This document shows, one piece after another, positions 1 to 59,852 of a DNA stretch of 64,000 bases. This DNA is from Elusimicrobia bacterium GWA2_56_46. Lineage in GTDB: Bacteria; Elusimicrobiota; Elusimicrobia; Elusimicrobiales; UBA9959. The number at the start of each line of letters is the position of its first letter. Position 1 is the stretch's first letter. The position numbers and the translations under genes were made by a program. The stretch spans positions 1-64,000 of the forward strand of contig MGTT01000006.1 of assembly GCA_001799575.1 (NCBI GenBank), written 5' to 3'. A model generated the notes under the pieces. That model saw only the letters and a program-made list of their open reading frames with translations. It did no database searches and was not told where the DNA came from.

Positions 1-111
1 AAAAAGCCACAGGAGCAATACGCAGGATCACGGCAACAAAGCGGACATTTCTAAATGCCGCTACTACCGGACATTTCTATTTGCTTGCAACATAGGGAGA
101 ATTCCAGCGGC
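1..111. other. intergenic edge with duplicated GGACATTTCTA word
   Basis: This non-coding edge sits downstream of the MFS gene. The word CGGACATTTCTA occurs twice (about 42-53 and 68-79), with similar flanking bases. Such paired words can mark the end of an insertion sequence lying outside the window, but no transposase is visible here. The identity is unresolved. Confidence 0.3.
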
Positions 112-14238: not shown

Positions 14239-14249
14239 GTGCGTGGGTC

Positions 14250-14278
14250 TTGACAAGTCAAGGGGGGTCTGCTATAAT
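14250..14278 (+). promoter_or_regulatory. consensus promoter TTGACA-17-TATAAT
   Basis: TTGACA (14250-14255) and TATAAT (14273-14278) both match the sigma-70 consensus exactly with 17-bp spacing, 12 bp after the LysM gene. It is the strongest promoter in the window and faces a stretch with no convincing protein gene. Confidence 0.85.
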
Positions 14279-14284
14279 TAAGGT

Positions 14285-14408
14285 GCGGCGGGCGGTATCT
14301 CATGAGGGAGGCAAGTGGGCTCCTGGTTGTGGTTGCGGGGATCATGCTCGCGCAGCGGATGAGGGACACGGAAAGGCGGCGGTACGGCGCTTTTCGTGTC
14401 CCTTTCGT
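14285..14408 (+). ncRNA. candidate structured small RNA
   Basis: This roughly 124-nt transcript is predicted between the perfect promoter at 14250 and a strong hairpin at 14362-14403, whose 9-bp arms AGGGACACG and CGTGTCCCT can extend inward. Other possible stems are CTCAT with ATGAG, GGAG with CTCC, and GCGGG with CTCGC, giving a branched fold. The hairpin is not followed by a clean T tract. I do not recognise SRP RNA, 6S, tmRNA or a common riboswitch. A 62-codon reading frame crosses it, but it begins inside the promoter and looks fortuitous. It could also be the leader of the downstream TPR gene, which however has its own promoter. Confidence 0.5.
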
Positions 14409-14417
14409 TTGGGGCTG

Positions 14418-14446
14418 CTGACAGCGGCCCCCAATTAGATTATAAT
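14418..14446 (+). promoter_or_regulatory. promoter CTGACA-17-TATAAT, leaderless
   Basis: CTGACA (14418-14423) and TATAAT (14441-14446) are spaced by 17 bp. The ATG of the TPR gene follows the -10 box by 7 bp, so the predicted transcript begins at or next to the start codon. Confidence 0.7.
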
Positions 14447-14453
14447 CTCCTTA

Positions 14454-16235
14454 ATGTATAAAGCGGCTTGCCTGTCTTTCGCGCTTGGGATTTTTTTGTC
14501 CCGGGGGCTTTCGTTTGCCTCTATCGGCGCGCCGGGCCCCGCCATCCCGCCGCCCACGGTTCCCGCTTCGGCCGGAGAACCAACTGGCGAATCTCCGATC
14601 CCTAATTCCGACGGGAAAGCGGCTGGCGTGGCCACGGTCTGGGATCGTATCATGGAGGAGGCCAGCCTGACGAATCTGCGCCGGGGCTATATGCTCATGG
14701 AGGCGGAGAATTATCCCGAGGCCGCCAACGAATTCCTCAAAGCTATAGCCAGAACCCCGGCGGAGCCTTACGCGCGCATTCTGTACGGCTCCAGCCTGTA
14801 CTGGCTGGGCAGCCCGGACAAGGCCATGGCGGAGTTCGAGACCGCCGCCGCGCTGGATCCGCGGAACCCCGTCGCTTACCAGCTCATGGGCATAGTACAC
14901 GCCTGGAAAGGCGAATTCGCTCCCGCGCTGGAAAAATTCCTTAAGGCGCGGGATCTTGCCCCCGATCGGGCGGATGTGCGGATGAACATCGGTTCCATAT
15001 ATCAATCCCTCGGCGATACGGATAAGGCGCTGGACTATTTTCGGGCCGCGGCCAGGCTGGAGCCCAAGAACCCGCTGTACCTTTACCAATTGGGCCTCAT
15101 TTATTCCAGGCTGGGCCGCGTTCCGGAGGCCAAGGCCGCCTTCCGGGGCGCGCTGTCCGCGTTCAGGGATTACGAGGACGCAATGCTGGAGCTGGCCGTC
15201 CTGGAGGAAAAGGACGGAAACATCAAAGAGGCGGTACGCCTGTACCGCAAAGCCCTGGGTATAAAACCAGGCGATAATGTCGCCCGCTTCAGGCTGGCCT
15301 GCCTGCTCTATAAAACCGGCGACGACAAGCGGCTTAACGCTTTACTGGAGGACGCTTTTCTTCTTACGCCTTCCAACGCCGCTGGAGGCATTTCGGTCAG
15401 TCTGGCCTATGCCGGCGGCCCGGACGCGGCGGATTCCCGGTCAGGGGCCGGTAAATCCCCCGGCGCCGAACCCGGCAGGGACAAGCCCGGTTCATTGGAG
15501 AGCGCTGTGGCCAGGGTTCCGTCCGACGAGGACATAAGCATAAAGGCGGAGTTGATCTCCATCCCCAAAACCCGGCTGGTCGCGAGTCCGGAGGGAGCTC
15601 CGAAAGGCCTTAAGGACGCTCTGGAAGCCGGTTTAAACCGGCCGAAAGTCGGTTATTTGAGAAGAGAATACTCGCTCCCCGCGTCGGATGTAAAGAACCG
15701 GGGGGCCAGGGCGGCCCGGATAGCCTCGGAGCTGGACAGCGCGGTAAAGGCCGCCTCCGGCCAGGATCTTGATACGCGTGTGTCGATCAGCCTGGAGACC
15801 AGGAAAGCTTCTGTTTCCCCCGCCGCTGGTGGGGAGTCCCCCAGTGTCGTATATAAACCGCGCGATGTCGGGAACGATATGGGTTTGTGGGTCATGGGCG
15901 CCAACTGGCTGGAGAATGTGGAAGACGCCCTGGAAGACCTGCGGGACGTTTCCGGCGGCACGGAGAAAAACGGGCGTTTCGGGATCGTGCTGGGGCTCGG
16001 CCGGCTTATCCTGGGCGAGCCGGACGCCGCTCTTTCCGCCTTTGAAAGCGTTCCTGCCGGCGCGGCCGCGGATCTCGGCAGATGCGCCGCATGGGTGGAG
16101 AAAGGCGCGCAGGATAAGGCCCTCGCGGCCTGTCTTGATGCGCTTAAAAAGGAGCCGCAAAACAAGACCGTTCTCGCGAACCTGAAATGGCTGAAAAAAG
16201 ATTTATGGATTCCTGCCAAAAGCACGCAGGAATGA
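14454..16235 (+). CDS. exported TPR-repeat protein with repeat-derived C-terminus
   Basis: 593 residues. A signal peptide (about 1-22) precedes TPR units from about 75 to 290 (such as SYRAAARLEPKNPLYLYQLGLIY-type helices), followed by a low-similarity region (310-480) and another helical repeat stretch near 480-580. The final dozen residues, KDLWIPAKSTQE and stop, are encoded by the right half of the dispersed MITE (16195-16238), so the original end was lost or extended by the insertion. Probably an envelope scaffold, function unknown. Confidence 0.7.
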   Translation: MYKAACLSFALGIFLSRGLSFASIGAPGPAIPPPTVPASAGEPTGESPIPNSDGKAAGVATVWDRIMEEASLTNLRRGYMLMEAENYPEAANEFLKAIARTPAEPYARILYGSSLYWLGSPDKAMAEFETAAALDPRNPVAYQLMGIVHAWKGEFAPALEKFLKARDLAPDRADVRMNIGSIYQSLGDTDKALDYFRAAARLEPKNPLYLYQLGLIYSRLGRVPEAKAAFRGALSAFRDYEDAMLELAVLEEKDGNIKEAVRLYRKALGIKPGDNVARFRLACLLYKTGDDKRLNALLEDAFLLTPSNAAGGISVSLAYAGGPDAADSRSGAGKSPGAEPGRDKPGSLESAVARVPSDEDISIKAELISIPKTRLVASPEGAPKGLKDALEAGLNRPKVGYLRREYSLPASDVKNRGARAARIASELDSAVKAASGQDLDTRVSISLETRKASVSPAAGGESPSVVYKPRDVGNDMGLWVMGANWLENVEDALEDLRDVSGGTEKNGRFGIVLGLGRLILGEPDAALSAFESVPAGAAADLGRCAAWVEKGAQDKALAACLDALKKEPQNKTVLANLKWLKKDLWIPAKSTQE

Positions 16236-26109: not shown

Positions 26110-27912
26110 ATGCCGCCAGTCAAAGGTTTCCAAAGGAAGAGAAATATCAGGGAGATCCTGATAGAGGGCGGCCTTGTCACCGATGACAAGGTAAAAGTCG
26201 CCGAAGAACTGGCTAAAAAAGAGAACAAGCCCCTCCAGCAGGCGCTGGCGGAACTGAAACTCATAGACGAACTGACGCTTTTGAAAGTCCTGGCCGACGA
26301 ATGGGGATTTAAGGCCGTGGATCTTTCCAAAATGGAAGTGCCCAGGGAGACCGTCCAGGTTCTGCCCGAAGCCATCGCCATGCGGCAGACCTGCGTGCCT
26401 TTCGCCCTCAAGGACAACGTGATGTTCCTGGCGATGTCCGACCCCCGCGATTTTCTGGTGGTGGAGGATATCGGTCTGAGGACCGGCCTTGAGGTCAAGG
26501 CTTACCTTGCCCTGCCCCAGGGGATAAACAAGGTGCTGGACACCGTGTACGGCAAGGCCGACGCGGCGCAGGTGGATCAGCTTGTGGAATCGGTCACCCA
26601 GGCCGCGCCCAAAGGCCCCGGCGAGGAAGAGTCGTTCTCCCTGGCCGAGGAAGCCGAGAAAAAAGACATCAGCGACGTGGACGCCAACGCTCCCGAAGTG
26701 GAGCGCCTGGTCAACGCCATAATCCTGGGGGCGCTGAACATCAAGGCTTCGGACATCCACATAGAGCCTTTTGAAGATCCCAACGGAAAAAACTCCAAGG
26801 TGCTGATCCGCTACCGTGTGGACGGTATGCTCAGGGTCGCCTCTTTCTCCGTGCCCTGGGCCTACCGGCAGGCCATCAACGCCAAGATAAAGATCATGAG
26901 CAACTCCATGAACATCACGGAGCGCCGTATCCCGCAGAGCGGCCGCATCCAGATCATCGCCAAGGGCAATCCCATAGAATTCCGCGTCGAAATAATCCCG
27001 ACCGTGTACGGCGAGTCCTGCGTCATGCGTATCCTGGACCGGGCCTCGGTTCGCGTCGATATCAAGGTCATGGGTTTCCTGCCCGATACGGAAAAGACGC
27101 TCCTCACCCAGTTCCAGGGTATCGGCGGAAAAAAGAATTTCGGCCTCATGCTGGTCTGCGGCCCCACGGGTTCGGGAAAATCCACCACGCTTTACGGCTG
27201 TTTGAACTATGTCAACCGCCCCGACATAAAGATCCTCACCGCCGAGAACCCGGTGGAGTACAATATAGACGGTATCGTGCAGGTTCCGGTGAACCCGGAC
27301 ATTAAACTCGGCGAAGGCAAAAAGTTCGATTTCGCCACCGCGCTGCGCTCTTTCATGCGTCTGGATCCGGACGTTATCATGGTGGGCGAGATCCGCGACG
27401 AGGAGACCGCGCATATCGCCCTTGAGGCCGCCATGACCGGCCATCTGGTTTTCTCCACCATCCACACCAACGACGCCGCGTCGGCGCTGGAGCGCCTGAC
27501 CCAGATGGGCATACCGCGCTTCGTAGTGGCCAACACCATGAAAGGCGTGCTCGCGCAGCGTCTGGCCAGGCGGCTCTGTCCTGAGTGCAAGAAGGAAAGC
27601 GATCTTTCGCCGGAGGAAAGGGCGGTTTTTGAGGCCAATAATGTGAAGGTTCCGGAGGGGGCAAAGCTCTTTCATCCCGTGGGCTGCGAGAAATGCAAAA
27701 ACACCGGCTACAAGGGCCGCTGCGGTATGCACGAATTACTCATCCTTAACGATGCCATCCGCCTGCAGCTCCTGACCGATCCCTCCTCCATCCCTGTCAA
27801 GAATATCGCCATGAAGGGCGGAATGCGCACCATTGCCATGGATGGCCTTGAAAAGGTTCTCATGGGGCTTACCACGGTTAAAGAAGTCCTCGGTGGAGCG
27901 GCTGAGAAGTAA
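26110..27912 (+). CDS. pilB: type IV pilus/type II secretion assembly ATPase
   Basis: 600 residues. An N-terminal MshEN-like domain (about 10-150) precedes the hexameric ATPase core: Walker A GPTGSGKST (351-359), Asp box, Walker B DVIMVGEIRD, His box STIHTNDA, and a tetracysteine zinc site (CPECKKE and CEKCKNTGYKGRC). It powers pilin polymerisation at the inner membrane. The pilin and prepilin peptidase genes are 2-3 kb downstream, so this is a split pilus locus. PilB and GspE cannot be separated with certainty. Confidence 0.92.
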   Translation: MPPVKGFQRKRNIREILIEGGLVTDDKVKVAEELAKKENKPLQQALAELKLIDELTLLKVLADEWGFKAVDLSKMEVPRETVQVLPEAIAMRQTCVPFALKDNVMFLAMSDPRDFLVVEDIGLRTGLEVKAYLALPQGINKVLDTVYGKADAAQVDQLVESVTQAAPKGPGEEESFSLAEEAEKKDISDVDANAPEVERLVNAIILGALNIKASDIHIEPFEDPNGKNSKVLIRYRVDGMLRVASFSVPWAYRQAINAKIKIMSNSMNITERRIPQSGRIQIIAKGNPIEFRVEIIPTVYGESCVMRILDRASVRVDIKVMGFLPDTEKTLLTQFQGIGGKKNFGLMLVCGPTGSGKSTTLYGCLNYVNRPDIKILTAENPVEYNIDGIVQVPVNPDIKLGEGKKFDFATALRSFMRLDPDVIMVGEIRDEETAHIALEAAMTGHLVFSTIHTNDAASALERLTQMGIPRFVVANTMKGVLAQRLARRLCPECKKESDLSPEERAVFEANNVKVPEGAKLFHPVGCEKCKNTGYKGRCGMHELLILNDAIRLQLLTDPSSIPVKNIAMKGGMRTIAMDGLEKVLMGLTTVKEVLGGAAEK

Positions 27913-29279: not shown

Positions 29280-29363
29280 GGGCGGGTGGCGGAACTGGCA
29301 GACGCGCACGGCTCAGGACCGTGTGGCCGAAAGGCCTTATGGGTTCAAGTCCCTTCTCGCCCA
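29280..29363 (+). tRNA. tRNA-Leu (CAG)
   Basis: 84 nt. Acceptor stem GGGCGGG pairs with CTCGCCC, anticodon loop CTCAGGA within CACGG/CCGTG, a long variable arm and T-loop GTTCAAGTC. CCA is not encoded. A T tract follows at about 29365. Confidence 0.95.
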
Positions 29364-32510: not shown

Positions 32511-32601
32511 TGGCGGAGAGGGAGGGATTCGAACCCTCGAAGCACTTTTGGCGCTTACAGACTTTCCAGGTCTGCGCCTTCAACCACTCGGCCACCTCTC
32601 C
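32511..32601 (-). tRNA. tRNA-Ser (GGA)
   Basis: Acceptor stem GGAGAGG / CCTCTCC with encoded GCCA end, anticodon GGA inside CAGACCT...AGTCTG, a long class II variable arm and T-loop GGTTCGAATCC. Confidence 0.95.
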
Positions 32602-32611
32602 ACAAAAACTA

Positions 32612-32695
32612 TGGTTGGGGAAGGATTCGAACCTTCGTAGGACGTAGTCCGCTGGTTTTACAGACCAGTGCATTTGACCGCTCTGCCACCCAACC
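32612..32695 (-). tRNA. tRNA-Tyr (GTA)
   Basis: Acceptor stem GGTTGGG / CCCAACC, anticodon GTA within CTGGTCT...AACCAG, a class II variable arm and T-loop GGTTCGAATCC. CCA is not encoded. It lies 10 bp upstream of tRNA-Ser on the same strand, so the two are probably co-transcribed. Confidence 0.95.
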
Positions 32696-52990: not shown

Positions 52991-53063
52991 CGCCCCCAAA
53001 GGGATTCGAACCCTTGATCTCTGCCTTGAAAGGGCAGCGTCCTAACCGCTAGACGATGGGGGC
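52991..53063 (-). tRNA. tRNA-Glu (TTC)
   Basis: 73 nt. Acceptor GCCCCCA / TGGGGGC with discriminator G, anticodon TTC within CTGCC...GGCAG, T-loop GGTTCGAATCC. CCA not encoded. Confidence 0.96.
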
Positions 53064-59768: not shown

Positions 59769-59852
59769 GGGCAAGTGGCGGAACTGGTAGACGCGCAGGT
59801 CTCAAAAACCTGTGATCTCACGGTCGTGAGGGTTCGAGTCCCTCCTTGCCCA
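59769..59852 (+). tRNA. tRNA-Leu (CAA)
   Basis: 84 nt. Acceptor GGGCAAG / CTTGCCC, anticodon loop CTCAAAA between CAGGT and ACCTG, long variable arm, T-loop GGTTCGAGTCC, discriminator A, CCA not encoded. Confidence 0.96.

Follow-up and report, generated by a model that had tools for sequence, protein, structure and literature searches.

What does the strong promoter at position 14250 of this DNA drive, and to which class does its product belong? The initial annotation of the window (the whole 64,000-nucleotide stretch of DNA that was analysed) proposed a structured RNA of unknown class at this place. As judged by sequence comparison, the locus is a real non-coding RNA gene, conserved within a single Elusimicrobiota family and equipped with a promoter and a terminator of its own. 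The comparison brings out five features, namely the separate promoter, a selected terminator, a fixed motif, the lack of a conserved reading frame and the independence from the neighbouring gene. Beyond this, we consider it reasonably likely that the product is a stand-alone, operator-controlled, family-specific and probably trans-acting sRNA that uses GAGGGAGGC as its contact site.

Promoter, terminator and members of the RNA family

The promoter lies at 14250..14278 on the forward strand, with the -35 element TTGACA at 14250-14255 and the -10 element TATAAT at 14273-14278. It was described as a perfect TTGACA-17-TATAAT promoter, and it does match the consensus at 12 of 12 positions with a 17-bp spacer, while the TG at 14270-14271 ahead of the -10 element makes it an extended -10 promoter; it is of the sigma-70 type. 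Perfect TTGACA-N16-18-TATAAT sites number 12 in the 2.66-Mb genome, versus 0 for the reversed control pattern. The promoter is kept in relatives, and in same-genus genomes both the promoter and the RNA were recovered by DNA search. The small non-coding RNA occupies 14285..14408 (+). Both of its ends are predicted, the start about 7 nt past the -10 element and the end past the terminator, and the predicted transcript is about 122 nt in this genome and about 120-140 nt for the RNA gene generally. The fold of the RNA strand is more stable than those of dinucleotide shuffles (z -3.2), with 1 of 200 shuffles equally good.

When we searched with the covariance model R1 at E<=0.1, matches were obtained in 22 of the 59 family genomes, representing 11 of 13 genera, and a few of them were weak. 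Removal of four weak matches, all from genus g4 and mostly similar to coding DNA, left 18 solid members. Three of the removed matches (G044, G050 and G054) are without the promoter element and resemble coding DNA; the fourth, G053, has GAGGGAGGC, and the promoter element was not seen in the stretch viewed. Over the 341 phylum genomes, R1 gave a single match outside the family, which was weak. The weak match in G171 (f9) was likewise rejected, being without the promoter element and similar to coding DNA. Most genera other than the large genus g4 carry the RNA, at one locus per genome, whereas in the greater part of g4 it is absent or can no longer be recognised.

The intrinsic terminator hairpin lies at 14361..14404 (+). 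Its helix was first noted as 9 bp or more and is in fact longer, with 15 bp formed by the arms 14361-14375 and 14390-14404; the U-rich tail on its 3' side is modest in this genome and longer in most relatives. In an alignment of 10 sequences, 100% of the helix cells were paired and both-sided changes were found at 7 of the 15 pairs; 0 of 500 shuffles reached this covariation, and slid controls paired at 42-72%. With all 18 members, 270 of 270 cells were paired and 9 of 15 pairs showed both-sided changes, in an alignment that was fitted to the covariance model and so leans towards structure. The comparative alignment that had been recommended in search of covarying stems thus found the terminator hairpin kept, with compensatory changes in relatives. 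By this comparison the terminator is under selection, and the hairpin would protect the 3' end of the RNA. RNAalifold detected no conserved stem besides the terminator helix in the 10-sequence cross-genus alignment. Three further complementary pairs had also been reported; they do form in the fold of this sequence but are not conserved across genera. In G040 (L027/L150), the RNA region extends over about 200 nt, because a structured insertion of about 80 nt precedes GAGGGAGGC; this extra part is absent from the same-genus relative G013.

The fixed motif and its possible partners

Near the 5' end of the RNA, the 9-nt motif GAGGGAGGC (14304..14312, +) is identical in 16 of the 18 aligned members, and the only departures are the two members of genus g10. 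Mean column identity of the RNA alignments is 54-58%, so that, the hairpin aside, no other part of the sequence is as strongly constrained as this motif, and we propose it as the contact site. Candidate partners may be an mRNA, the ribosome (GGAGG lies within the motif) or a protein. We infer that the RNA would act in trans, with GAGGGAGGC pairing with a C-rich target mRNA or binding a protein. Pairing of this RNA with the ftcD-linked RNA described below was considered and rejected, since inspection by eye gave only about 5 bp between the two.

The closest competitor to an mRNA-pairing role is sequestration of a protein or of the ribosome, in which GAGGGAGGC, which includes the Shine-Dalgarno (SD) core GGAGG, would capture either the 3' end of the 16S rRNA or some RNA-binding protein. 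In line with such a role, the motif is fixed at the level of primary sequence and lies outside any conserved stem, and its exact complement GCCTCCCTC is not enriched in the genomes above the reversed-pattern control. However, the fixed 9 nt reach past the SD core, and predicted accessibility is mixed, with the motif often partly paired. The missing enrichment and the mixed accessibility weigh against the favoured reading as well, as do the modest U-rich tail in this genome and the lack of a recognisable RNA in most of g4. Moreover, the version of this idea based on CsrA is excluded. CsrB/RsmY-type RNAs, which sequester CsrA, resemble this RNA in their GGA-bearing purine-rich motifs and terminator hairpin, but of the 59 family genomes only two, G010 and G034, encode CsrA (PF02599), and since neither of them carries the RNA, a CsrA sponge was rejected. 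Overall, we regard sequestration as unlikely, yet worth keeping in mind.

Hfq (PF17209) was detected in 0 of 21 relatives, including this genome (G000), by a search whose control was detected in 5 of 14 genomes. The classical partners CsrA and Hfq thus seem unavailable as far as tested, and the RNA would work without CsrA and, where examined, without recognisable Hfq. These properties can be set against trans-acting bacterial sRNAs in general. The RNA is like them in being intergenic, in having its own promoter, a length in the range of about 100-150 nt, a terminator hairpin and a short invariant motif, and in lacking a conserved frame. It differs from them in that none of the 4227 Rfam families is homologous to it, in that the hosts tested are without CsrA or recognisable Hfq, and in its purine-rich motif. 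The palindrome over its -35 element, common to other RNA genes, is a further difference.

Neighbouring gene and class of the RNA

The RNA is usually flanked by a LysM gene on one side and a TPR gene on the other, and it stands directly ahead of the latter in 15 of 18 members. In the window, the TPR-protein gene (assigned on a Pfam basis) is the direct downstream neighbour at 14454-16235. A search with its protein yielded 80 loci, several with the same upstream layout. The closest of the named records with a syntenic TPR gene are Elusimicrobia MAGs, which identifies the window as Elusimicrobiota DNA. This arrangement raises the alternative that the RNA is a 5' leader of the TPR gene, an attenuator or riboswitch in which a signal opens the terminator and permits read-through. 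The terminator between promoter and gene is attenuator-like, and competition between two GAGGGAG copies for CUCCCU is conceivable. Against this, the TPR gene has a promoter of its own at 14418..14446 (+), CTGACA-17-TATAAT with 11 of 12 matches, separate from that of the RNA. Because its -10 element sits 7 nt ahead of the ATG, and a TATAAT-like box precedes the start codon in most relatives, the TPR mRNA is probably leaderless and made from this promoter. In addition, the RNA and the TPR gene are apart in three genomes: the TPR gene is not adjacent in G007, and the RNA is at an unrelated locus in G012 and G032. Finally, in G000, G001 and G002 the arms of the terminator differ without a matching change in the first GAGGGAGGC; since it stays static while the arms covary, there is no conserved alternative pairing, and attenuation by exchange of the GAGGGAG copies was rejected. 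We consequently judge a leader function improbable. The detachment from the TPR gene, together with the TPR promoter, argues for a stand-alone sRNA forming a separate transcription unit, and by this comparison the RNA is independent of the neighbouring gene.

No known RNA motif had been recognised at the locus, and the Rfam covariance search advised at that time agrees, with no match at gathering thresholds and, when the limit was relaxed to E of 10, no hit that was credible. The neighbouring promoter loci were also scanned against Rfam, and no credible family for the RNA emerged. The same type of scan located five tRNA genes in the window (29280-29363, 32514-32601, 32612-32695, 52991-53063 and 59769-59852).

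The initial annotation considered a 6S-like or a lineage-specific RNA, and of these two suggestions the second stands: promoter, terminator and 9-nt motif recur across most genera of the family. That the RNA is a diverged form of 6S RNA, acting on RNA polymerase, has very little probability. Like 6S RNA (RF00013), the RNA is lineage-conserved and single-copy, with a strong promoter, and no recognised 6S RNA occurs in the 59 family genomes, according to a model that is insensitive and detects 6S in only 5 of 14 control genomes. The RNA itself does not match this model either, which means little given the insensitivity. But it is shorter (about 122 nt versus 187 positions of the Rfam model), its sole conserved helix is the 3' terminator hairpin, the long closing stem of 6S RNA with its central bubble is not present, and its promoter carries an operator-like palindrome; 6S identity was rejected on this architecture.

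Equally implausible is a small protein or leader peptide, for which one could cite the 62-codon frame noted earlier in this genome, and GAGGGAGG followed by a GTG at SD distance in G000 and G001 (frames of 15 and 11 codons), but 4 of the 6 genera of the first alignment have members without an SD-led frame (G016, g12, G033), the frames differ in start, length and sequence, and the start of the 62-codon frame falls within the -35 hexamer. In 14 of the 17 sequences compared, a set that includes this one, a stop codon ends that frame after 4-25 codons. A shared SD-led frame was sought in the 17 sequences and none was found, so that a small ORF was rejected for want of a conserved frame and the earlier statement that no credible protein is encoded holds.

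The literature on Elusimicrobiota, as far as searched, describes no small RNA. The RNA is a new, previously uncatalogued family within a known kind, the intrinsically terminated bacterial sRNAs, and its conservation is sufficient for an entry of its own among the RNA families.

A palindrome shared with other promoters

The wider of the findings concerns the promoter, whose -35 element is overlapped by an operator-like palindrome, CTTGACAAGTCAAG (14249..14262, +), in which CTTGAC and GTCAAG flank a central AA. Within the family, 54 of 59 genomes contain the pattern TTGACAAGTCAA-N8-TGNTA, versus 2 of 282 other phylum genomes, and the reversed control gave 1 match. We compared 116 distinct palindrome sites; these were picked by the pattern, which leaves only the surrounding positions informative, and there the palindrome is lengthened by a flanking C and G, and G is preferred close to where the transcript is expected to start. 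At some loci the palindrome stands upstream of, not over, a separate TTGACA promoter. It is about 10-12 bp upstream of such a promoter at L295 and L296 (G000:C11, 39272 and 94766, both on the reverse strand) and directly upstream at L154 (G032). Because it also stands upstream of other promoters, we argue that the palindrome serves as the binding site of a protein, distinct from the site used by the polymerase, and its position over the -35 element of the RNA points to regulated rather than constitutive expression. In geometry it recalls MarR/SlyA operators, whose SlyA consensus is TTAGCAAGCTAA (PMC5797941), as a 12-bp inverted repeat with 5-bp half-sites around AA (TTGAC-AA-GTCAA); the half-site is different here, and the likeness is one of geometry only and serves as a lead.

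The palindromic promoter fronts not only this RNA but also two other RNA elements and a single-TM protein gene, as well as scattered genes for proteins with signal-peptide-like N-termini. The first of these RNAs is about 100 nt long and mostly lies upstream of an ftcD-like gene. In this genome it is represented by L101/L231 (G000:C5, palindrome 26605-26618, RNA on the reverse strand), with further copies at L113, L175, L206, L227, L230, L248, L135 and L123. Its 10 copies share 32 invariant columns and a terminator GCGAAAACCCGC..GCGGGTTTTCGC with 113 of 120 cells paired, and an Rfam scan gave no match. The second is a long GC-rich RNA-like element that begins with GTAGTCYTGATCTTT and is present in several copies in some genomes, G041 having three sites on one contig; it is found at L104/L239 (G000:C15, 82094) and at L127, L134, L183, L188, L207, L208 and others. 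The single-TM protein gene, at L105/L243 (G000:C18, 89820, reverse strand) and at L112, L125, L126, L128, L131, L136 and others, shares this promoter and has in its leader a conserved hairpin of the form ACTTTGCCTTGAAC..GTGTCAAGGAAAGT; no Pfam family was found for it.

Since the operator-like promoter is common to several other RNA genes, the RNA is probably part of a small regulatory network. We infer a putative dimeric DNA-binding regulator that would recognise the CTTGACAAGTCAAG palindrome over the -35 element and would switch this RNA jointly with several further RNA genes and one or more genes for membrane proteins. A wider proposal, which we put forward tentatively and give somewhat less than even chances, is a family-specific RNA regulon in which one dimeric regulator, acting through TTGACAAGTCAA, coordinates several unrelated structured sRNAs (this RNA, the ftcD-linked RNA and the multi-copy GC-rich RNA) and a membrane protein with a structured leader. 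If true, bacteria that lack CsrA, and apparently Hfq too, would here exert control through RNA. The shared operator would offer a direct handle on a network with several new RNAs in an uncultured lineage that is without CsrA and, where tested, without Hfq.

Two riboswitch-like elements were also observed among the loci examined. At L014 (G007:C52), a palindromic promoter is followed downstream, at positions 820-898 on the reverse strand, by a sequence that resembles a c-di-GMP-I-UAU riboswitch, below threshold (56 bits, cut-off 65.9). At L106 (G000:C15), a fluoride riboswitch occupies 30-91 (+), just before a short membrane-protein-like gene.
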